The notes below the pieces were generated by a model that saw only the letters and a program-made list of their open reading frames with translations, was not told where the DNA came from and did no database searches. The position numbers and the translations under genes were made by a program. DNA of 64,000 bases from Gordonibacter urolithinfaciens (lineage in GTDB: Bacteria; Actinomycetota; Coriobacteriia; Coriobacteriales; Eggerthellaceae): the NCBI RefSeq assembly GCF_900199375.1, contig NZ_LT900217.1, forward strand, positions 2,294,001-2,358,000, written 5' to 3'. Below are positions 3,126 through 59,129 of the stretch, one piece after another. The stretch's first letter is position 1. Every line of letters starts with the position of its first letter.

Positions 3126-3509
3126 CTAACGCTTCTCCATCGCGGGTTTGAAGCAAGCGAGCGCCCAGGCGTCGTCGAGCGCAAGGCCGATCCGCTCCTC
3201 CAATCCCTCGCGGCGGGCGGTCAGCCAGAGCGCGTGCCACCCGAATGTGCGCCCCTGCCGTCCGCGCGGCTTCGGGAAGGCCACCCACAGCTCGCCGCGG
3301 CGGGAAAGCGCTTCGCGTGCCTCGGCTATGCGCGCGCGGTACTCGTCCAGGTTCGTGGCGAACAGCACCGCGAAGTCGTACGGCCCTCTGGAGGGGAAGG
3401 CGACCAGCTCCTGGCCGGCCGCCATGGCGTGGAACTCGGGCGGGGCGTACAGCGCGACCCCTTTCGCGCCCTCTTCCAGATGCATTTTCTTGAACACGGT
3501 GGACTCCAT
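3126..3509 (-). CDS. Small conserved-looking protein, possibly DUF3052-like
   Basis: This 127-residue soluble protein has no signal peptide or membrane segment. I chose ATG 3509 because a strong ribosome site (GGAAGGGAGGACG, 3511-3523 on the minus strand) precedes it; longer readings to 3632 lack one. The middle part (about 40-80, PYDFAVLFATNLDEYRARIA) and the following GELWVAFPKPRG stretch recall the DUF3052 family, in which an acidic strand is followed by a helix and a (W)(V/I)xxPK motif. I do not know a function. It is transcribed toward TorD and away from the NrfD operon at 3838. Confidence 0.6.
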   Translation of the reverse strand: MESTVFKKMHLEEGAKGVALYAPPEFHAMAAGQELVAFPSRGPYDFAVLFATNLDEYRARIAEAREALSRRGELWVAFPKPRGRQGRTFGWHALWLTARREGLEERIGLALDDAWALACFKPAMEKR

Positions 3510-3837
3510 ACGTCCTCCTTCCCTCACGAGCTTGACAGTTTTCCCGGCCAGTCTAACGCGAGCGTCACCCCGCCGCGACCATCGCTGCCGTTCTGCAACG
3601 CGTGCGTCGCCCGGCCTTCGCACGATGCGCACATGGCACGGTCGCTCAAAATGCCCTACAATAGCCCCATGATTGTCTTAGGATAATTTGCATCGCGCAG
3701 CGTCGACGAACGGGCTCGACGCACGTCGCATCGGCGTGCACGGTACGCGGTCGGATGCCTGGGCGGCGGGCCATGCGCTCGCTGCGCGGCGCGTCTGACG
3801 CGCGTGCCCAACGGCCGAAAAGGGAAGGGGTGGCTCG
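3510..3837. other. Intergenic gap upstream of the orphan NrfD operon
   Basis: This 328-base divergent gap has no credible gene. It contains a -10-like TACAAT (3657-3662) followed directly by the half-palindrome at 3670-3689 described separately. The ribosome site of the NrfD gene (GGGAAGGGG, 3822-3830) closes it. Confidence 0.6.
3670..3689 (+). promoter_or_regulatory. Half-site shared with the 39-bp operator at 7702-7740
   Basis: The 20 bases starting TGATTGTCTTAGGATAATTT match 7722-7741, upstream of the molybdoenzyme operon, at 19 of 20 positions. The opposite arm is poorly conserved here. It follows a TACAAT hexamer (3657-3662) and would overlie the transcription start of the NrfD-GntR-slipin operon. 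The sharing of a rare AT-rich motif by two respiratory operons suggests one DNA-binding regulator. Confidence 0.55.
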
Positions 3838-4821
3838 ATGCTCGGTCCGCTGATCGTGTGCTACCTGTTCCTGGGCGGGACGGGCGCGGGCGCGTGCCTC
3901 GTGCTCGCCGTGCTGGGGATGCTGGCGCCGCGCGAGCTCGTTGCGGTGCAGGGTGTCGGCGGGCGCGGCGTCGGCCGCGGCCCGGCGGGCGCGCACGCGG
4001 TGCTGCGGCCCCCGGCGCCCTACCGCAGGTTGCTGGCTCCCGGCTATGCGGCGGCGCTCGTGGCGCTCGCGCTGGGCATGGTGTGCCTGCTGGCCGACGT
4101 GGGCCGTGCCGACCGCCTGCTTCTGCTGCTCACCAGCCCTGCGCTCTCGCATGTGGCGGTGGGCGCCTGGTCGCTGGTGGTTTGCGCGGCGCTGGCCGTG
4201 CTGGCGGGGCTTGCTTGGGCTGGCCTGGCGCGGCGCTGGCGCTTCGCGGCGGTGCGGGTGCTGCAGGCGGCGCTGGCGTTGGCGGCGCTCGCAGTCATGC
4301 TGTACACGGGGCTGCTGCTGCAGAGCCTGAACGCGGTGCCGCTGTGGGCCACACCGTGGCTGCCGGCGCTGTTCGTGCTGTCGTCGCTGTCGTGCGGCAT
4401 GGCGCTCGTGCTGGCCGCGGCCCAACTCACCGGCGCGGCGTCTGCGTTCGCCACGGTACTCGGCCGGCTGGCTGCCGTCGATGCCGTCGTCATCATGCTG
4501 GAGGCGGTGGTGCTGGCCGCGTTCGCGGGCACGGCGCTCGCGGGCATCGGCGGCGACTTCCTGGTCGACCGCACGGCCGAGGCCCTGGCGGCATCGGCCG
4601 AGGCCCTGGTGGCGGGCGAGGCGGCCTGGCTGTTCTGGGGCGGGTTCGTGCTGGCGGGGCTTGCCGTGCCGTTCGCGCTCGACGTGGCCTTGGCCCGGCT
4701 GCGGCGCCCGCGCCCGGTGATCGCCCTCGTGACGGCGGCGTGTGTGCTGGCTGGCGGGCTCATCATGCGGTACTGCGTGGTGGAGGCGGGCATGCATCCG
4801 CTGCTTGCGATGGCGTCTTGA
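3838..4821 (+). CDS. Orphan NrfD/PsrC-like membrane subunit
   Basis: This 327-residue protein is almost entirely hydrophobic, with eight to nine membrane segments, and starts with a LFLGGTGAGACLVLA segment typical of NrfD/PsrC quinone-interacting subunits. Unlike the other two NrfD genes here it has no adjacent ferredoxin or catalytic gene; it heads an operon with a GntR regulator and a slipin. It may serve a complex encoded elsewhere. The ATG follows GGGAAGGGG (3822-3830). Composition is extremely Ala/Leu/Val rich. The fold assignment is fairly secure, the partner unknown. Confidence 0.8.
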   Translation: MLGPLIVCYLFLGGTGAGACLVLAVLGMLAPRELVAVQGVGGRGVGRGPAGAHAVLRPPAPYRRLLAPGYAAALVALALGMVCLLADVGRADRLLLLLTSPALSHVAVGAWSLVVCAALAVLAGLAWAGLARRWRFAAVRVLQAALALAALAVMLYTGLLLQSLNAVPLWATPWLPALFVLSSLSCGMALVLAAAQLTGAASAFATVLGRLAAVDAVVIMLEAVVLAAFAGTALAGIGGDFLVDRTAEALAASAEALVAGEAAWLFWGGFVLAGLAVPFALDVALARLRRPRPVIALVTAACVLAGGLIMRYCVVEAGMHPLLAMAS

Positions 4822-4842: not shown

Positions 4843-5316
4843 ATGTTCCCGTTCGAAGTTGATACCACGACCGACGTGCCCCTGTGGGTGCAGCTGCGGC
4901 AACGGCTGATCCATCTTATCAACACCGGCTACTTCAAGCCGGGCGACCAGCTGCCCACGGTGCGCGGTCTGGCGTCCGAGATATCCATCAACTACAACAC
5001 CGTGAACAAGGCGTACCTGAGCCTGGTCTCCGACGGGTACCTGGAGTCCACGCGCGGGCGCGGCGTGTTCGTGCGGGGCCTCGATGCCGATGTGGGCGAC
5101 GAGCACGCCCAGGAGATCGACGCCATCCTGGGCGATTGCGTGGCGTCGTGCCGCGATCTGGGGCTGACGCTCGACGACGTGCAGAAGTGCATGGCGCGCA
5201 AGATCAAGCAGATGAAGCGCGCAGCCGGGGAGGAGCCGGCCGGCGAGGCCGGAGGCGGCCGTATCGTGGAGATCGACGTGGGCTGCGTTGGCCGCGCGTC
5301 GCAGACGGGAGCGTGA
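4843..5316 (+). CDS. GntR-family transcriptional regulator, YtrA type
   Basis: This 157-residue protein has an N-terminal winged helix (about residues 10-76) with the GntR signature: PLWVQLRQRLI, GDQLPTVRGLASE, NYNTVNKAYLSL, and the wing GYLESTRGRGVFV. The C-terminal part is only a short helical stretch, as in the YtrA subfamily, rather than a large ligand domain. It begins 21 bases after NrfD with a good ribosome site (CTGGAGGAA) and ends TGATG, overlapping the slipin start. It probably autoregulates this operon, the usual behaviour of YtrA-type genes that sit with membrane transport or complex genes. Confidence 0.9.
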   Translation: MFPFEVDTTTDVPLWVQLRQRLIHLINTGYFKPGDQLPTVRGLASEISINYNTVNKAYLSLVSDGYLESTRGRGVFVRGLDADVGDEHAQEIDAILGDCVASCRDLGLTLDDVQKCMARKIKQMKRAAGEEPAGEAGGGRIVEIDVGCVGRASQTGA

Positions 5317-6341
5317 TGGCATTGGCAAGGAGAAGCGGTGCGCAGGGCTTCGCGCCCGATACGGCGGCGTTCGCCGGCAAGGGGGCACCGCCGCCCGCCC
5401 ATCGGCGGTCTTTCCAGGTGGTGCCCGATGCGAGCACCGAGGTCGTGGGCGAGCGCGCCTCCAACGCCGGCGTGCTGCTGTTCTCGGCGGTGGTGTTCGC
5501 CGTGTCCTTCTGCGCTGTGCTGGGCGCAGCATGGGTTCTCGCCGGCGGCATCGGCCTCGGCGCGGTGGTTGCCGCCTTGGTGGTGGCCGTGCTCGCCACC
5601 ATGTCGGTGCACATCGCGCAGCAGTGGGAGAAGGTCGTGGTGCTGCGCCTGGGCAAGTTCAACCGCGTGTCGGGCCCGGGCCTGTTCTGGACCTGGCCCG
5701 TTATCGAGCAGAACACCATGCGCGTGGACGGCCGCGTGCGCGTGACCACGTTCGGCGCCGAGGAAACGCTCACGGCCGACCTGGTGCCCCTCGACGTGAA
5801 CGCCGTCTTGTTCTGGCATGTTTGGGACGCGAAGGCCGCTTGCACCGAGGTGGGCGACTTCACGCGCGCCGTGGAGCTGGCTGCCCAGACCGCGCTGCGC
5901 GACGCCATAGGCCGCGCGGGCGCCGCCGAGGTGGCCATCCGCCGCGAGCAGCTCGACCGCGAGCTCAAGCGCGTGCTGGAGGAGAAGGTGGCCGCCTGGG
6001 GCGTGACCATCCTGTCCGTGGAGGTGCGCGACATCCTGCTGCCGAAAGAGCTGCAAGACGTCATGAGCCTGGAGGCCCAGGCCGAGCAGCGCAAGAAGGC
6101 CCGGATCATTCTCATGGAGGCCGAACAAGACATCTGCGAGATGATGGACGACATGGGCGACACCTACGCGAAGAACGACGCCGCCCTGCGCCTGCGCTCG
6201 ATGCACCTCCTGTACGAGAGCGTGCGCGAGACGGGCGGCACCGTCGTGGTGCCGAGCTCGTTCAGCGAGGGCTTCGGCGACGTGCTGGGCGACGCGGCGA
6301 AGGATGCGCTAGGCGGAAAGGCGGGCAGCGGGAAAGCATGA
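5316..6341 (+). CDS. Slipin/SPFH (band 7) membrane protein
   Basis: This 341-residue protein has two adjacent N-terminal membrane segments (about 45-90) followed by an SPFH/band-7 domain (about 95-270). The domain shows QQWEKVVVLRLGKFNRVSGPGLFWTWP and the LDRELKRVLEEKVAAWGVTILSVEVRDILLP stretch characteristic of slipins, then a helical tail. ATG 5316 overlaps the GntR stop (TGATG), so translation is probably coupled; upstream in-frame codons would run through the GntR gene. Slipins scaffold membrane microdomains and commonly pair with NfeD, which is absent here; the NrfD in the same operon may be its membrane partner. Confidence 0.88.
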   Translation: MALARRSGAQGFAPDTAAFAGKGAPPPAHRRSFQVVPDASTEVVGERASNAGVLLFSAVVFAVSFCAVLGAAWVLAGGIGLGAVVAALVVAVLATMSVHIAQQWEKVVVLRLGKFNRVSGPGLFWTWPVIEQNTMRVDGRVRVTTFGAEETLTADLVPLDVNAVLFWHVWDAKAACTEVGDFTRAVELAAQTALRDAIGRAGAAEVAIRREQLDRELKRVLEEKVAAWGVTILSVEVRDILLPKELQDVMSLEAQAEQRKKARIILMEAEQDICEMMDDMGDTYAKNDAALRLRSMHLLYESVRETGGTVVVPSSFSEGFGDVLGDAAKDALGGKAGSGKA

Positions 6342-6477: not shown

Positions 6478-7578
6478 ATGGTATTGCACAACCCTTTCAC
6501 ACCCTCGTTCGGCATCATCCCGCCCTACATGGCAGGAAGGGAGGATCTTATCGAGGAGCTTTCGAACGCCTTTTCCAACGGCCTCGGGGATCCCAATCTT
6601 TCGACCATCGTGTCGGGCCCGCGCGGTTCGGGCAAGACCGCCCTCCTTTCTTTTGTGGCCGAGGAGGCGGCATCGCAAGGATGGATATCCGCCAACACCA
6701 CTGCGGCGACAGGAATGCTCGAGGACGTTCTCGACCAGGCGACCGTTGCGGCGCGTGATTTCCTTGACTCGTTGGACGGTAAGAAGCTCAAAGGTATAAC
6801 CATCGGCCAGTTTGTCGGATTCGAGTGGGATAACGAGACCCCGCGTTCGGGCAATTGGCGCACGCAGATGAACGCGCTTCTCGATCAACTTGCGGAGCAC
6901 GAGGTGGGCCTGCTCATCACGGTCGACGAAGTACGGGTCGATCTCGAGGAAATGCGGCAACTTGCCCGAGTGTACCAGCATTTCGTGCGCGAAGGCCGCA
7001 AAGTCGCCCTTCTGATGGCGGGGCTTCCCCATGCAGTGTCAGCTCTTTTAGGCGACGAAAGCGTGTCGTTTCTTCGCAGGGCGCGCAAGCATGCTCTTGG
7101 CCGTATTCCCGATAACGACGTGCGTGATGCCATGAGCATCACCATCGTGCAGGGCGGTAGGGCCATATCGCCAACGGCGCTCGATACCGCCGTACGCGCT
7201 GTCGATGGGTTTCCCTATATGATGCAGCTTGTTGGCTATCGTATTTGGGCGGAGAGGCCTGCATCCAAGGAGATATCGCCAGACGATGTCGCCCGAGGTG
7301 TGGAGCTTGCCCGTCGCGAGATGATGGAGGGGATTCTCGAATACACCTATCGCGAGCTGTCGAAGGGGGACAAGCGCTTTTTGGCCGCCATGCTTCCCGA
7401 TGCCAAGGACAGCTCCCTTGCCGACATAGCCGAGCGTATGGGTGTGAAGAGCAATTACGCCTCCCAGTACAAACGGCGTTTGTTGGAGCAGGGCGTGATC
7501 GGCGAGTATCAAAAAGGATACGTGCGCTTCGACATGCCGTCGTTCAGGGAGTACCTGCAAACGCAGTTGGAGGGATAG
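6478..7578 (+). CDS. AAA-family ATPase with C-terminal winged helix
   Basis: This 366-residue protein has a Walker A GPRGSGKT (47-54), a Walker B LLITVDE (145-151), and a C-terminal helix-turn-helix-like region (about 300-360; SLADIAERMGVKSNYASQYKRRLLEQGVI). It resembles the predicted ATPase family (ATPase_2/Cdc6-like AAA plus wHTH) found as stand-alone genes in many genomes, with no agreed function. I chose ATG 6478 over an earlier in-frame codon because GGAAAGG (6463-6469) precedes it and the protein then starts at the conserved PFTPSFG region. Its codon use is less GC-biased than its neighbours, hinting at acquisition by transfer. Confidence 0.8.
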   Translation: MVLHNPFTPSFGIIPPYMAGREDLIEELSNAFSNGLGDPNLSTIVSGPRGSGKTALLSFVAEEAASQGWISANTTAATGMLEDVLDQATVAARDFLDSLDGKKLKGITIGQFVGFEWDNETPRSGNWRTQMNALLDQLAEHEVGLLITVDEVRVDLEEMRQLARVYQHFVREGRKVALLMAGLPHAVSALLGDESVSFLRRARKHALGRIPDNDVRDAMSITIVQGGRAISPTALDTAVRAVDGFPYMMQLVGYRIWAERPASKEISPDDVARGVELARREMMEGILEYTYRELSKGDKRFLAAMLPDAKDSSLADIAERMGVKSNYASQYKRRLLEQGVIGEYQKGYVRFDMPSFREYLQTQLEG

Positions 7579-7701
7579 CATCCTAGATGCCCCAGTTGCG
7601 CGTCGAGGATGATGTGCTACGCTGCGGAGGTAGCAGCCTGACAATTCAATGACCTGCGCAATCAGGAAAAACTATGTTAAAAATAGAATAATCATATGAC
7701 A

Positions 7702-7740
7702 AATTATCCTATGACAATCATTGATTGTCATAGGATAATT
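7702..7740. promoter_or_regulatory. Perfect 39-bp palindromic operator
   Basis: Two 19-base arms (7702-7720 and 7722-7740) are exact reverse complements around one central T. The arm contains ATCCTATGACAATCA. The octamer TATGACAA occurs at 7695-7702, 7710-7717 and inverted at 7725-7732, 15 bases apart. The centre lies on the predicted -35 box, a position used by activators and by repressors. No regulator gene is adjacent; in Eggerthella-like genomes such operons often answer to LuxR-type regulators, but that is only a guess here. Confidence 0.85.
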
Positions 7741-7749
7741 TCGTATAGT
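7721..7749 (+). promoter_or_regulatory. Predicted promoter of the molybdoenzyme operon
   Basis: TTGATT (7721-7726) and TATAGT (7744-7749) are separated by exactly 17 bases. The -35 box and half of the spacer fall in the right arm of the palindrome, so binding there must affect polymerase access. Confidence 0.6.
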
Positions 7750-7881
7750 GAAGCCGAGGGAATTTGGCCAATTCTCACGAGAAGCAGGGGGATATTCTCG
7801 CATGGGGCTTGTCGGCTGGGGCGCTAAGCTCGCTTGGCAGGCAAAGCGGGGATATCTTGACGACATCTTCGAGGAGGATCC

Positions 7882-10296
7882 ATGTCAGGAACCAGAAGCC
7901 CGCGAAGCGGGCTCACGAGAAGGGGTTTTCTCAAGGCGACGGGTGCTGCGGCAGGCGCGTTGGGCCTTGCAGGCGCCGCCGGCATGACCACGGCCGACAG
8001 CTGGCTCGCACCGGCGCAGGCGCATGCCGAACCCGAGGAGCGGGTGGGGTATACGTTCCACTATCGCCACTGCCAATGCAACTGCCATTTGAAGTGCACG
8101 GTTCGCGACGGACGCATGGTTTTGGTCGAGCCGAACGAATGGCCCGACAAGCGCAACGAAACCATCTGCCTGAAGGGCATTTCCGAGATTCAGCATACGT
8201 ACAGCAAAGAGCGCCTGCAGGTTCCGCTCAAGCGCGTGGGCGAGCGTGGTGCGGGCGAGTTTGTCGAGATTACCTGGGATGAGGCGCTCGACACCATTGC
8301 CGAAAAGGTGAAGGAGACCCAGGAGAAATATGGGCCGGAGGCCATTGCCATCCAAACGGCCGTTGACTCGCTCACCACGTTCCTTCCTAAACTGCTCAAG
8401 GGCCAGGAGAAACCCCACCGCGGGATCGATATCGGGCTGGGCAATGGCTTCTCCCCGGCGCTTGCCGAATCAGGTCAGCAGGGGGCCTCGTCGAACGAGG
8501 TGACCGATTGGAAGAACGCCAAGACCATCCTGAACGTGGGATGCAACATGCTGGAGACATGCATGGTAACCGCGCGCTACTTCTTCGAGGCAAAGGAGGC
8601 GGGAGCCGAGATCATTACGCTCGATCCCAACTTCTGCACGACTGCCGAGAAGAGCACGCGATGGATTCCCATGGTCGCCGGAACCGATCCGGCACTCTAC
8701 TTGGGCATGATCTCGATCATCTTGGACAACGAGTGGTACAACGCCCCGTACCTGAAAGCCAACACGAGCATGCCGTTCCTCGTGAAGCGTTCCGATGGGT
8801 CGCTGCTGCGTAAAAACCCTGCCGGCGATATCAAGCAGCCCGGCTCCGACAATCCTTTCATGGTGTGGGATGAGGCTGCAGGATCCTTGGCCGCCTATAA
8901 TACCGAAGGCGTGAACCCTGCGCTTGAATATGAGGCGACTGTCGACGGAGAGGCGTATGCCACGGTTTTCAAGCTGCTGAAAGAGGGCCAAAAGCAGTAC
9001 ACATCCTCTTGGGCTGCCGAAACGACGGGCATAGGCGAAGACGTGCTCGTTGAGATCACCGATAAGTATGCGAACCATGGCCCTTCGATCCTCTCCTTTG
9101 GCTTCGGCGGTGGGGAGAAGTTCTACAATGCTGACGTCGCAGGTCATGCGGCAGTGCTGCTGGCTACGCTCGTCGGCTCGTTCGGAACCGGCATTCCCGG
9201 ATGGGGAGCGGGCGCGTACGTGAACGCGTACCAGAAGATATTTGGTACGGGCAAGCTGGCCTCGTGGCCGTTGCCGACGGAGTGCAAGACCGCCTCGGCA
9301 CCGAAGGCGAGCGTCGACTACCGCGACGAGAAAAGCGGCATCCGCTTCATGTGGGTGCAGAACGGCGCGTTCCAACAGATCGCCGGCAACCAGAATCGCA
9401 CGAACGAGTGGGCGAAGACCCTCGATTTCGTTGTCGTGCAGGACATCTGGCATACGCCTTCGGTGGATTGGGCCGATATCGTTTTGCCGGTGTGCTCCCA
9501 CTTCGAAGTGGACGAGGAGATCGGCTTCGTGCGCGCCCTGCGCGGCCATGTCCTTCTGCAGCAGAAGGTACTCGACCCCCTGTTCGAGAGCAAGACGGAT
9601 TTCTGGATCGATCGCGAGATGGCCAAGCGTCTGGGATACGGGGATGCGCTTCCCAAGAGCCAGGAGGAGCTGACGCGCTTCCAGTTGGAAAAGGCGACCG
9701 ACAAGGCGCTCGCCGGCATCACCCTCGACGAGGTCGTATCGCACAACGGCGTGGTCGCGCTGAAGAACCAACCGGATATCGCGCGCAGCTACGGCAACCA
9801 GACCTACAAGACGACATCGGGCAAGATCGACCTGTACTACGAGAACCTGGTGGAATACGGCCAAGCTCTTCCCCAATACGAAGCGCCTCATGAAGCGTTC
9901 GAGGGCAACCCCCTGCGGGACACATATCCGCTTGTCATGACGCAGCGTCGCTCCAAATACTTCATCCACCAGAACCTCATGGACGCCTCGTGGCTGCGCC
10001 AGCATTACGAGCCGACGCTCGAGATGAACCCCGTCGACATGGAGGCGCGCGGCCTGGAGTCCGGTGACGTGATCGAGGCGTTCAACGATCGTGGGTCGTT
10101 CCAATGCGCGTGTGTTGCCACCGAGGCGGTGCGTCCGGGGACGACGGTCATCGTCGAGGGCATTTGGAGCAAGTATATGACTGCCGGCGATTTGCAGAAC
10201 GTTACCAACGACGCTGCGAACCCCCGTGGAAAAGCGCTCGCCAAGGGGAGGGTTACTCCCTTCAACGACACGCTTATCGAAGTGAAGAAAGCATAG
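7882..10296 (+). CDS. Tat-exported molybdopterin oxidoreductase, catalytic subunit (DMSO reductase superfamily)
   Basis: This 804-residue protein begins with a twin-arginine signal (TRRGFLK, 12-18) and a hydrophobic stretch ending near A-x-A at 46-50. A 4Fe-4S site follows (C64-x3-C68-x3-C72-x23-C96; C66 is an additional cysteine), then the molybdopterin domains (ILNVGCNMLET near 215; DIVLPVCSHFEVDEEIGF near 535) and a C-terminal dinucleotide-binding domain (from about 670). Length and layout fit periplasmic-facing DmsA-type enzymes. The next genes give the ferredoxin, NrfD anchor and TorD chaperone, so the complex is self-contained. The strong ribosome site GAGGAGGAT fixes the start. The substrate cannot be assigned from sequence alone. 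Confidence 0.93.
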   Translation: MSGTRSPRSGLTRRGFLKATGAAAGALGLAGAAGMTTADSWLAPAQAHAEPEERVGYTFHYRHCQCNCHLKCTVRDGRMVLVEPNEWPDKRNETICLKGISEIQHTYSKERLQVPLKRVGERGAGEFVEITWDEALDTIAEKVKETQEKYGPEAIAIQTAVDSLTTFLPKLLKGQEKPHRGIDIGLGNGFSPALAESGQQGASSNEVTDWKNAKTILNVGCNMLETCMVTARYFFEAKEAGAEIITLDPNFCTTAEKSTRWIPMVAGTDPALYLGMISIILDNEWYNAPYLKANTSMPFLVKRSDGSLLRKNPAGDIKQPGSDNPFMVWDEAAGSLAAYNTEGVNPALEYEATVDGEAYATVFKLLKEGQKQYTSSWAAETTGIGEDVLVEITDKYANHGPSILSFGFGGGEKFYNADVAGHAAVLLATLVGSFGTGIPGWGAGAYVNAYQKIFGTGKLASWPLPTECKTASAPKASVDYRDEKSGIRFMWVQNGAFQQIAGNQNRTNEWAKTLDFVVVQDIWHTPSVDWADIVLPVCSHFEVDEEIGFVRALRGHVLLQQKVLDPLFESKTDFWIDREMAKRLGYGDALPKSQEELTRFQLEKATDKALAGITLDEVVSHNGVVALKNQPDIARSYGNQTYKTTSGKIDLYYENLVEYGQALPQYEAPHEAFEGNPLRDTYPLVMTQRRSKYFIHQNLMDASWLRQHYEPTLEMNPVDMEARGLESGDVIEAFNDRGSFQCACVATEAVRPGTTVIVEGIWSKYMTAGDLQNVTNDAANPRGKALAKGRVTPFNDTLIEVKKA

Positions 10297-10305
10297 GTGA
10301 TCCTC

Positions 10306-10923
10306 ATGACGCGATTGGCTATTGCCATCAACCTGGATCGTTGCACGGGGTGCAACACCTGCGCCATGGCGTGCAAGATGCAGAACAACGTTCCCATGGG
10401 CATGGCTTGGAACCGCGTGCTCAACGAAGAATGTGAGTTCGAGGTGGGCGTGCAGGGTACGTATCCCCATGTCTCGCGCGCGCATCTGCCCGTTGCCTGC
10501 CAGCATTGCGAGAACCCGGCATGCCTGCGCGTGTGTCCCACGGGTGCCACGTACAAGGACGACAAGGGCCGCGTGGAGATCGACTACGACAAGTGCATCG
10601 GCTGCCGCATGTGCATGGCGGCATGCCCGTACAACGCGCGTGTCTTCAACTGGAGCGAGCCGGTGCGCGACCCCGACTTCAACTACGGTGACAGGGATGT
10701 GCCGGTGCGGGGAAAGGGTGTTGTGGAGAAGTGCACGCTCTGCAAGGAGCGCACCGACCGCGGCGACGAGCCCATGTGCGTGAAATGCTGCCTTGCCAAA
10801 GCGCGCGTCTTCGGCGACCTCGACGATCCCGAGAGCGAGATCTCGCGTGTCATTCGCGAGCGCAATGCGACCGTCCTGCTTCCCGAGCAGGGAACCCGCC
10901 CGCAAGTCCGTTACTTCAACTAA
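10306..10923 (+). CDS. DmsB-like ferredoxin subunit with four 4Fe-4S clusters
   Basis: This 205-residue electron-transfer subunit has four cysteine groups: C13-x2-C16-x2-C19-x3-C23, then CQHCENPACLRVC near 65-77, CIGCRMCMAAC near 95-105, and a final CTLCKER with CVKCC near 140-165. This is the standard DmsB/NrfC pattern for wiring the molybdenum subunit to the membrane anchor. I chose ATG 10306, 10 bases after the catalytic gene and with AGGTGAT upstream; GTG 10297 is a possible alternative. It has no signal of its own and is probably carried by the Tat leader of its partner. Confidence 0.93.
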   Translation: MTRLAIAINLDRCTGCNTCAMACKMQNNVPMGMAWNRVLNEECEFEVGVQGTYPHVSRAHLPVACQHCENPACLRVCPTGATYKDDKGRVEIDYDKCIGCRMCMAACPYNARVFNWSEPVRDPDFNYGDRDVPVRGKGVVEKCTLCKERTDRGDEPMCVKCCLAKARVFGDLDDPESEISRVIRERNATVLLPEQGTRPQVRYFN

Positions 10924-10939: not shown

Positions 10940-12148
10940 ATGCAAACCTCTACGAAAACCAAAGCCGCAATCGGCGTGCTCGGCGCGCTGACGGCGGTGG
11001 GAGTCGCCGCCTGGATCTACCAGCTCATGGGCGGCCTCGGCGTGACCGGCATGAACAACGGCACGTCGTGGGGCCTCTACATCACCATGTTCATGTTCTT
11101 CGTGGGCCTCTCCGCCGGCGGCCTGATCGTGGCATCGTCCGCCAGCGTGTTCCACGTGGCAGACTACAAGAAGGTGGCGCTTCCCGCCGTCATCCTGTCC
11201 ACGGTGTGCATCTGCTGCGCCGGCATGTTCGTGCTCATCGACCTCGGCGGCATCCAGCGCGTGTGGCGCATCGTCACGGGGCCGAATCCGACGTCGCCGC
11301 TGTTCTGGGACATCTGCGTCATCACGCTGTACCTCGTCATCAACATCGTGTATCTGCGCTTCATGACGTCGAAGAAGCCGGGCGCGCAGGACAAGGTGGC
11401 CATCGTGTCGCGCTTCGCGCTTCCCGTCGCTATCCTCGTGCACTCCGTGACGGCGTGGATCTTCGGCCTCGAGATGGCGCGCGAGGGCTGGTACTCGGCC
11501 ATCATGGCGCCCTTGTTCGTGGTGTCGGCTATGGACTCCGGCCTGGCGCTGCTCATACTGTCGCTCATGGGGCTCAACAAGTCCGGCCGCTTCAAAACCG
11601 ACAAGAAGCTGCTGTCGAACCTCGCCGGGCTCTTGGCGGTCTGCATCGCCGTCGATGGCTTTCTCGTGGGCTGCGAGGTCCTGACCATGGCCTATCCGGG
11701 CGCCGCCGGCGCCGAGACGCTCGCCGTCATGGCGACGGGCGCCACCGCCCCGTTCTTCTGGTTCGAGATCGTCGTGGGCATTCTCATCCCGTTCTGCATC
11801 CTCGTGTTTGTGAAGAACCGCGCGCGCATGGGGCTGGTGGCTGCCGCCAGCGCGTGCGTGGTGGCGGGCGTGTTCTTCAAGCGCGTGTGGCTGCTGCTCA
11901 CCTCGTTCGTCGAGTTCAATGTGATGGGCGCCCCCGGTGTGTCGCTCGGCACGACGGCGGCGCAGCAGGGCGGCACCGGCATGTGGGCCCTTGCCGGCTC
12001 GTATACCCCCACCTGGGTGGAGATCGTCGTCGCCATCGGCGTGGTGTCCCTCGGCGTCCTCGCGTTCGTCATGCTGGCGCAGAAGCTGCTGCCCGGGCGC
12101 GCGGAGGCGTGCGAAGCCGTCAACGTTGCAGCGGGAGAGGCCGCGTAG
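10940..12148 (+). CDS. NrfD/PsrC-family membrane anchor of the molybdoenzyme complex
   Basis: This 402-residue protein has about ten membrane segments and is a close paralogue of the NrfD at 56-1288 (shared SWGLYITMFMFFVGLSAGGL, HSVTAWIFGLE and FKRVWLLL regions). It would anchor the catalytic and ferredoxin subunits and connect them to menaquinone. The start at ATG 10940 follows AAGGAGGAG (10922-10930), which overlaps the ferredoxin stop; upstream in-frame codons lie inside the ferredoxin gene. Confidence 0.92.
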   Translation: MQTSTKTKAAIGVLGALTAVGVAAWIYQLMGGLGVTGMNNGTSWGLYITMFMFFVGLSAGGLIVASSASVFHVADYKKVALPAVILSTVCICCAGMFVLIDLGGIQRVWRIVTGPNPTSPLFWDICVITLYLVINIVYLRFMTSKKPGAQDKVAIVSRFALPVAILVHSVTAWIFGLEMAREGWYSAIMAPLFVVSAMDSGLALLILSLMGLNKSGRFKTDKKLLSNLAGLLAVCIAVDGFLVGCEVLTMAYPGAAGAETLAVMATGATAPFFWFEIVVGILIPFCILVFVKNRARMGLVAAASACVVAGVFFKRVWLLLTSFVEFNVMGAPGVSLGTTAAQQGGTGMWALAGSYTPTWVEIVVAIGVVSLGVLAFVMLAQKLLPGRAEACEAVNVAAGEAA

Positions 12149-12175: not shown

Positions 12176-12811
12176 ATGTGCAAGGACATTCCCTGGAAAA
12201 CCCTGTCCGAGGCCTATGCGTTTGTGGGGAACTCGCTGTTGAAGCCTATGACGATGACGTTGACGGTAGGTTTGGATCCGGCATTCTGGGAGGCGTTTCC
12301 CGCGTTCGACGGCGCCGTGGCCCAGGCCGTGGAAGTTTGCGCATGCTATGCCGAAGAGGCCGGGCGTCGCGCCGAGGGAGGCGAGGACGGGCCGCAGCGC
12401 GCATCGGTGGAATACACGCGGCTGTTCGTCGGCCCGCCCTCGCCCGCGGCGGCGCCGTGGGAGACGATGTACCGCGGCAAGGATGTCACGGTGGGGTTCG
12501 GTCAGGCCACGTTCGAGATGCGCGAGTTGCTGCGCGAGGCCGGCCTTGAGGTGAGGAACGCTAACAACCAGTACGAGGATCACATGGGCATCGAGCTTCT
12601 GTACCTTTCGGAGCTATGCCGTCGCGAGGCCACGGGGGAGGGCGCTACCGAGTCGGCGGACATCGCCGCATTCATCGAGCAGCATCCGCTGGCGTGGATC
12701 GAGCCGTTCCTCGATCGCGTGTCCGAAGCGGCTCCCAACGGCTACTTCGCGGGCTTGCTCCTGGTGGCGCAACGGGTTCTCGAGCACCATGCGAGGCTTC
12801 TCGCGCGCTAG
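12176..12811 (+). CDS. TorD/DmsD-family molybdoenzyme chaperone
   Basis: This 211-residue helical protein carries the family's central YTRLFVGPPSPAAAPWETMY segment (near residue 80) and the D-HMGIELLYLSEL helix (near 135-145) that contacts the Tat leader. It starts 28 bases after the NrfD gene with AAAGGAG as ribosome site and ends the operon at a strong hairpin. Its dedicated client should be the Tat protein at 7882-10296. Confidence 0.88.
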   Translation: MCKDIPWKTLSEAYAFVGNSLLKPMTMTLTVGLDPAFWEAFPAFDGAVAQAVEVCACYAEEAGRRAEGGEDGPQRASVEYTRLFVGPPSPAAAPWETMYRGKDVTVGFGQATFEMRELLREAGLEVRNANNQYEDHMGIELLYLSELCRREATGEGATESADIAAFIEQHPLAWIEPFLDRVSEAAPNGYFAGLLLVAQRVLEHHARLLAR

Positions 12812-34549: not shown

Positions 34550-34585
34550 TATAGGATTAGGTCTAGTAGTATACGGTATCCTATG
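34550..34585. promoter_or_regulatory. ATAGGAT / ATCCTAT inverted pair before the ABC transporter
   Basis: TATAGGAT (34550-34557) and ATCCTATG (34578-34585) face each other across 20 bases, in an AT-rich patch 70-100 bases before the substrate-binding gene. The core is the same as in the 39-bp operator at 7702-7740 (ATCCTATGACAA). Spacing differs, so the link is tentative. Confidence 0.35.
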
Positions 34586-59046: not shown

Positions 59047-59129
59047 CGTAGGGCAAGGGCTCTGCCCTTGCCGCTGGACCTGCATTGATCGTTCCGGCTG
59101 GGCGGCAAGGGCAGAGCCCTTGCCCTACG
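59047..59129. repeat. Perfect 28-bp inverted repeat (BIME-like)
   Basis: Arms 59047-59074 and 59102-59129 are exact reverse complements, and each arm is itself nearly palindromic (GGGCAAGGGCTCTGCCCTTGC). The right arm runs into the stop codon of the VWA gene. It lies in the 111-base gap between the VWA and MoxR genes and resembles bacterial interspersed mosaic elements. A diverged copy is at 37735-37762. Confidence 0.85.

Follow-up and report, generated by a model that had tools for sequence, protein, structure and literature searches.

The perfect palindrome at positions 7701–7741 of the Gordonibacter urolithinfaciens stretch analyzed here (64,000 nucleotides, hereafter the window) most likely provides paired docking sites for a repressor from the neighboring operon. 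We consider it quite probable that this element is a twin operator for the local YtrA-type GntR protein (encoded at 4843–5316), which would repress both a molybdoenzyme and its own operon. The operator serves these two neighboring transcription units and no wide regulon.

Structure of the palindrome and promoter geometry

The palindrome is 41 bp long, with exact arms of 20 nt each and a 1-nt center; the initial annotation had recognized it correctly as a palindrome but had given it 39 bp and 19-base arms. In 2000 simulated 300-nt Markov sequences matching the local composition, the maximum arm was 10 nt versus the 20 nt observed, and local composition alone gives an expectation of approximately 1e-6 for such a palindrome in 64 kb. 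With 3 mismatches allowed, the palindrome core occurred once in the genome (3,294,868 bases, one contig), and an 18-base half was found genome-wide only at the palindrome and at 3671–3688, two places 4 kb apart. The latter is the same match that had been noted before as a 19/20 recurrence of the right half at 3670–3689. Within the window, the 17-base arm matched only at 3673, 7686, 7701, and 7725 (within 3 mismatches). A genome-wide regulon of the palindrome, as proposed initially, was rejected because the genome holds these two places only.

The palindrome (no strand assigned) contains two adjoining near-palindromic sites of 16 bp (ATTRTCMTAKGAYAAT) at a spacing of 21 bp. These are the predicted GntR operators O1 (ATTATCCTATGACAAT, 7703–7718, plus strand) and O2 (ATTGTCATAGGATAAT, 7724–7739, plus strand), located between the −35 and −10 hexamers. 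By inspection, the 16-mer inside each arm is symmetric at 12 of 16 positions; several genera have one site of the pair as a perfect palindrome over all 16 bp (ATTGTCATATGACAAT). The 41-bp palindrome can thus be read as two operators abreast, and this twin layout was found in 32 of the 33 loci compared. Situated 15 bp upstream of O1 is a degenerate extra operator copy with 3 mismatches (7688–7703, plus strand), which L051, L040, and L061 have as well. The octamer TATGACAA, described earlier as repeated three times in 15-base steps, does occur at 7695 and 7710, but the third copy, at 7725, is on the opposite strand. A predicted single operator, O3 (ATTGTCTTAGGATAAT, 3672–3687, plus strand), precedes the NrfD–GntR–slipin operon.

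The promoter previously proposed for the molybdoenzyme was confirmed, with the −35 hexamer TTGATT at 7721–7726 and the −10 hexamer TATAGT at 7744–7749 (both plus strand), separated by a 17-nt spacer. For the comparison of this region we used 33 loci, namely, the window and 32 others, excluding L079 as a near copy of L057. In all 33, a TTG lies between the operators or opens the right one. When a single fixed place was scored against TATAAT, the hexamer found 4 nt past the right operator agreed at 4 or 5 of the 6 positions in 29 loci and was TATAGT in 19. The spacing of the twin sites was 21 bp in 22 loci, 22 bp in 10, and 20 bp in one, and the molybdoenzyme promoter has an ordinary spacer of 17 to 18 nt with a good −10. 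The TTG at the junction and the −10-like hexamer 4 nt downstream indicate that the right site occupies the −35/−10 interval. In the window, O3 starts 9 nt after a −10-like TACAAT (3657–3662). Both promoters show repressor geometry.

Gene cassette and candidate regulator

All genes of the locus discussed here are on the plus strand. O3 is followed by an NrfD-family membrane protein gene (NrfD2, 3838–4821; PF03916, 3.3e-27), the gene for the 157-residue GntR regulator of YtrA type (4843–5316; PF00392, 1.5e-15), which is the candidate for binding O1 to O3, and a slipin gene (SPFH/Band_7, 5316–6341; PF01145, 2e-34), whose ATG overlaps the gntR stop codon. Downstream of the twin operator are the genes for a molybdopterin oxidoreductase of the DMSO reductase family (7882–10296; PF00384, 2.3e-39), a 4Fe-4S subunit (10297–10923), the NrfD-family membrane subunit of the enzyme (NrfD3, 10940–12148; PF03916, 9.2e-43), and a TorD/DmsD-type chaperone (12176–12811; PF02613, 3.8e-26). 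The molybdoenzyme is 97% identical to that of Gordonibacter pamelaeae 7-10-1-b (L040), also of the Eggerthellaceae. An AAA_16 ATPase (6478–7578) is encoded between the slipin gene and the twin operator; it was dropped as a candidate regulator because a close copy (96% identity) is found at the same place only in G. pamelaeae (L040/L061). ATPases of 25 to 26% identity lie close to the cassettes of L046 and L070; no ATPase was detected elsewhere among the stretches.

The GntR protein has an N-terminal winged helix-turn-helix (PF00392, 57 bits against a cut-off of 27), and its predicted model contains two C-terminal helices (residues 86–106 and 110–127) with a mean pLDDT of only 63. The available text of PMC4494728 defines the YtrA subfamily by a C-terminal domain of two α helices of approximately 50 residues and gives NyGTNxACNy as the GntR consensus. 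At the moderate confidence of the model, the protein thus has the short C-terminal domain of this subfamily. Foldseek returned 3neu, 3by6, 6sbs, and 2du9 as whole-length matches of the model, and the closest solved relative by sequence is 6sbs, the YtrA of Sulfolobus. The operator core in the compared loci (TTGTC-N4-GACAA-like) fits the GT-N-AC palindrome type of the YtrA subfamily. The partners of this GntR are, however, NrfD and slipin, and its putative target is a molybdoenzyme with a twin site, rather than the ABC transporter and single site typical of YtrA. Among 80 distinct GntR proteins with a slipin neighbor, 70 have Cys103; the four proteins without such a neighbor have alanine or histidine at residue 103 and differ at several positions. 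Cys103 is possibly a thiol switch. The regulator had been left unidentified in the initial annotation. A distant one is unneeded, because the conserved cassette places the gene of a YtrA-type GntR between the sites, and we infer that the product of this gene is the binding protein.

Conservation, paralogous cassettes, and neighboring elements

The operator 16-mer matched within 2 mismatches in 67 of 138 Eggerthellaceae genomes, and 36 stretches were fetched from 35 of those 67; because the stretches were picked by the motif, only their gene context counts as independent evidence. Paired sites precede a molybdoenzyme gene in 33 of the 36 (all except L066, L074, and L077), and in L075 one site is good and its partner poor (9 of 16 positions). 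The usual order is single site, NrfD, GntR, slipin, twin site, molybdoenzyme, Fe-S protein, and mostly NrfD and TorD. GntR and slipin genes are on all paired-site stretches except L067 and L078, which are short contigs (slipin is kept in L078). A single site was found in 24 of the 33 twin-site loci, with that of L050 being weak; among the nine loci without one, the contigs of L067 and L078 are truncated, and the sequence of L056 reaches only 135 nt upstream of the gene. This family-wide conservation supports the earlier proposal that the molybdoenzyme and the NrfD operon have an operator in common. In L037 the enzyme is 87% identical, yet neither cassette nor site was found within 6 kb upstream. 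L066 has an orphan perfect ATTGTCATATGACAAT at 8411 with no GntR cassette detected nearby, and three enzyme loci from outside the phylum (L041–L043, two records) are without GntR or slipin neighbors.

Single and twin sites also vary together. At operator position 10, which is G or T, they agree in 15 of 19 loci; these are 19 of 25 single sites, with L050, L057, L058, L071, L074, and L079 omitted because the site is of another form or the locus has no available twin. A change in the helix-turn-helix as the cause of this operator change is unsupported, since the helix-turn-helix is identical in the window and L064 although their operators differ at position 10. We also compared 21 enzymes from 20 paired-site loci (L057 contributed two, one of which has a single recognized site). 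Identity to the window enzyme was 41 to 89% for 12 of them and 27 to 32% for seven (L046, L049, L051, L055, L059, L060, and L067), and two (L045 and L075) were alignable only partly. The seven divergent enzymes are nearer to molybdoenzymes of other groups (up to 36–48%), and GntR remains recognizable (48–97%) while the enzyme subfamily changes. The presence of one operator type before different enzymes suggests that the signal need not be the substrate of one enzyme.

The genome encodes six GntR–slipin pairs, each adjoining a molybdoenzyme operon. Across five genomes of the genus, 30 of the 40 GntR matches listed reached 1e-20. Slipin adjoins all 30 (in L061 only a slipin fragment was matched), and a molybdoenzyme shares the stretch with all 30, for L111 the neighboring C1 enzyme. 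Most cassettes include an NrfD gene; in group C5 and in L128 an NrfD-like gene lies within the enzyme operon, and the C1 cassette of L061 yielded no NrfD gene. In a phylum-wide sample, 8 of 296 genomes, all among the 10 Eggerthellaceae genomes listed, matched the GntR at 1e-20, with 37 matches in total; in 25 newly fetched loci, slipin was adjacent in 25 and an NrfD-like gene in 23.

The paralogous cassette L098 keeps the layout of twin and single sites around a different core. Its 16-mer was found genome-wide at three places within 1 mismatch, all inside its own cassette, and at 2 mismatches additionally at the enzyme promoter of cassette L097. We then compared cassette and enzyme promoters blindly in ten cassette groups (28 pairs), using as the control the 99th percentile (14.0) of 686 cross-cassette pairs; L111 was omitted because the sole enzyme on its stretch is the C1 enzyme. 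A shared operator rose above the control in C1 (3/3), C3 (3/4), and narrowly C8 (one locus, 14.5). C2 and C6 had half-sites only in common between the two promoters, and no shared element stood out in C5, C7, C9, and C10. In the three divergent C4 loci the region was compared with itself, which inflates the mean, and C4 is therefore outside this comparison. By this sequence comparison, private operators are clear in two of the ten groups, so that the docking sequence apparently differs in at least two of the gene sets; "one GntR, one operator" is hypothetical for the remaining groups.

A second palindromic element, P1 (TATNCTNAAAATAGNATAAT, 7673–7692, plus strand), ends 10 nt upstream of O1 and was found within 3 mismatches in 21 of the 33 loci versus 3 of 3300 shuffles. 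In the genome of the window, 14 places match P1 at up to 3 mismatches (control, 0). Half of them have no more than 2 mismatches; six of these seven lie at the promoters of molybdoenzymes, namely, those of four cassettes and of a divergent enzyme pair, and the seventh precedes a gene for a 246-residue protein without a Pfam match. Among the seven with 3 mismatches, one precedes a molybdate transporter operon, 97 nt before the modA start (modA and modB were above the NCBIfam cut-offs and the ATP-binding gene was below), three are near a FecCD-type transporter and a DUF364 gene, and three are chance-like. A ModE regulon would have the same site before molybdate transport and molybdoenzyme genes, and P1, which precedes molybdoenzymes and, with 3 mismatches, modA, may be similar in this respect; its sequence does not look like the Escherichia coli ModE consensus. 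P1 may be a molybdenum-linked operator, for which a 114-residue ModE-domain-like protein encoded in the genome (L202, 1477–1821, minus strand; below the family cut-off) is a possible partner.

The initial annotation had also linked the palindrome to transport through a related pair at 34550–34585, before an ABC transporter operon. The arms ATAGGAT/ATCCTAT exist there (34551 and 34578), but the best 16-mers of the region match the operator at only 12 and 11 of 16 positions, which is the background level, versus 16, 16, 16, and 14 for the four sites; the region was accordingly rejected as an operator relative. A 7-bp inverted repeat arises by chance in 3.3% of random 61-mers with the composition of this region; the one at 34551–34584 precedes a gene for an NMT1-like solute-binding protein and is unrelated to the operator. 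A link between respiration and transport, if any, may run instead through P1, and a molybdenum-linked regulon of this kind may be the true connection behind the initial proposal.

Just after the predicted start is a conserved dyad, P3 (GGAATTTGGCCAATTCTC, 7759–7776, plus strand). In 27 of 33 loci it was found 18 to 22 nt past the twin site, with arms that change in matching fashion. P3 could be either a DNA site or a 5′ mRNA hairpin; a pattern search for it barely separated from the control (25/15 versus 12/13). Two further repeats were observed: a near-perfect palindrome of 51 bp (ACAGGCCAATGAACAGGTAAAATACAATATATTACCTGTTCATTGGCCTGT) on the downstream side of a TorD-like gene (L096, 18012–18062; about 2284011 in the genome of the window), and a perfect inverted repeat of 28 nt with a gap of 27 nt at 59047–59129, perhaps a terminator or a repeat.

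Proposed mechanism, alternatives, and known systems

In the mechanism we propose, one GntR dimer would bind each 16-bp unit. Two dimers sitting abreast, two helical turns apart, would cover the −35 hexamer and the −35/−10 spacer and switch off the molybdoenzyme promoter, and a single dimer at 3672–3687 would switch off the NrfD–GntR–slipin operon of the regulator itself. Release would follow a signal, perhaps passed on by the co-encoded membrane pair of NrfD and slipin. The same protein could bind these sites and activate the molybdoenzyme instead, which we regard as unlikely. O1 lies just upstream of −35, a position open to activators too, and in MerR-type systems binding between −35 and −10 can activate. 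The spacer here is, however, of ordinary length with a good −10, O2 fills this spacer, O3 is at the predicted start, and the characterized YtrA relative is a repressor according to the available text of PMC6746942.

Ownership of the sites by another regulator, such as a membrane LuxR protein, with the GntR gene lying between them for other reasons, is quite improbable. In the available text of PMC9734109, molybdoenzymes of Eggerthella lenta are controlled by membrane LuxR regulators. A LuxR regulator at the locus was nevertheless rejected, as no LuxR domain, behind 10 to 12 transmembrane helices or elsewhere, was found in a scan of twelve genes located between 56 and 12811 (a minus-strand ORF at 3126 excluded). 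The constant neighbors are GntR and slipin, the sites fit the GntR consensus of PMC4494728, and the paralogous GntR is accompanied by a changed operator in an unchanged layout. An RNA hairpin or terminator, which the perfect inverted repeat might suggest, is very improbable: the palindrome contains the −35 and lies upstream of the conserved −10, so that it would be outside the molybdoenzyme transcript. It is scarcely conceivable that the inverted copies at 3670–3689 and 7701–7720, around 4 kb, are ends of a mobile element. Their geometry in the window is compatible with terminal inverted repeats, but in related loci the content between slipin and the twin site varies while the sites keep the same promoters, the promoter spacing is fixed, and the genome has no further copies.

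Local autoregulated GntR repressors are already known, and YtrA of Sulfolobus acidocaldarius (6sbs) can be regarded as the proven analogue of the system proposed here. In the available text of PMC6746942, it is described as an autorepressor that has two targets; a 14-bp semi-palindrome covers the start site, and secondary half-sites are present. The two systems have in common a YtrA-type GntR with a short C-terminal domain, a co-encoded membrane-protein gene, a short semi-palindromic site, and two targets including the regulator's own operon, predicted from sequence in the present case; the degenerate copy at 7688–7703 recalls the secondary half-sites. Unlike in Sulfolobus, the second target would be a molybdoenzyme of respiration whose promoter carries a twin operator; the regulator is partnered by NrfD and slipin, and a single genome contains several copies of the cassette. 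The domain layout, the local operon with predicted autoregulation, and the GT...AC palindrome are also those of the bacterial YtrA subfamily, whose members, in the available text of PMC4494728, mostly regulate ABC transporters and have long motifs and single sites, with very few double sites. The LuxR regulators of E. lenta with 10 to 12 transmembrane helices (PMC9734109, available text) are similar in being many paralogues, each beside an enzyme, in the same bacterial family; they differ in belonging to another DNA-binding family, acting as activators, and having the sensor fused to the regulator. The terms "GntR," "slipin," and "NrfD" are absent from the main text of that paper. The open-licence literature searched yielded no paper that treats GntR together with slipin or NrfD in these bacteria, and no precedent for a multiplied NrfD–GntR–slipin cassette at molybdoenzymes.

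More speculatively, NrfD, slipin, and GntR might form a membrane-anchored redox switch, multiplied as a cassette with its own operator code for each copy. The orphan NrfD would sense either the quinone pool or electron flow through the partner enzyme, with the complex held by slipin, and GntR would be kept at the membrane or thiol-switched. Such a switch would constitute a second dedicated regulator family of the Eggerthellaceae for anaerobic respiration beside the membrane LuxR proteins. If the repressor reading is true, each NrfD–GntR–slipin cassette would identify the regulator of one molybdoenzyme and also, where resolved, its operator, and derepression could be used to find the signal of the enzyme. 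The paralogous regulator–operator pairs would offer natural material for studying how specificity diverges, as well as an entry to what orphan NrfD and slipin do in regulation.
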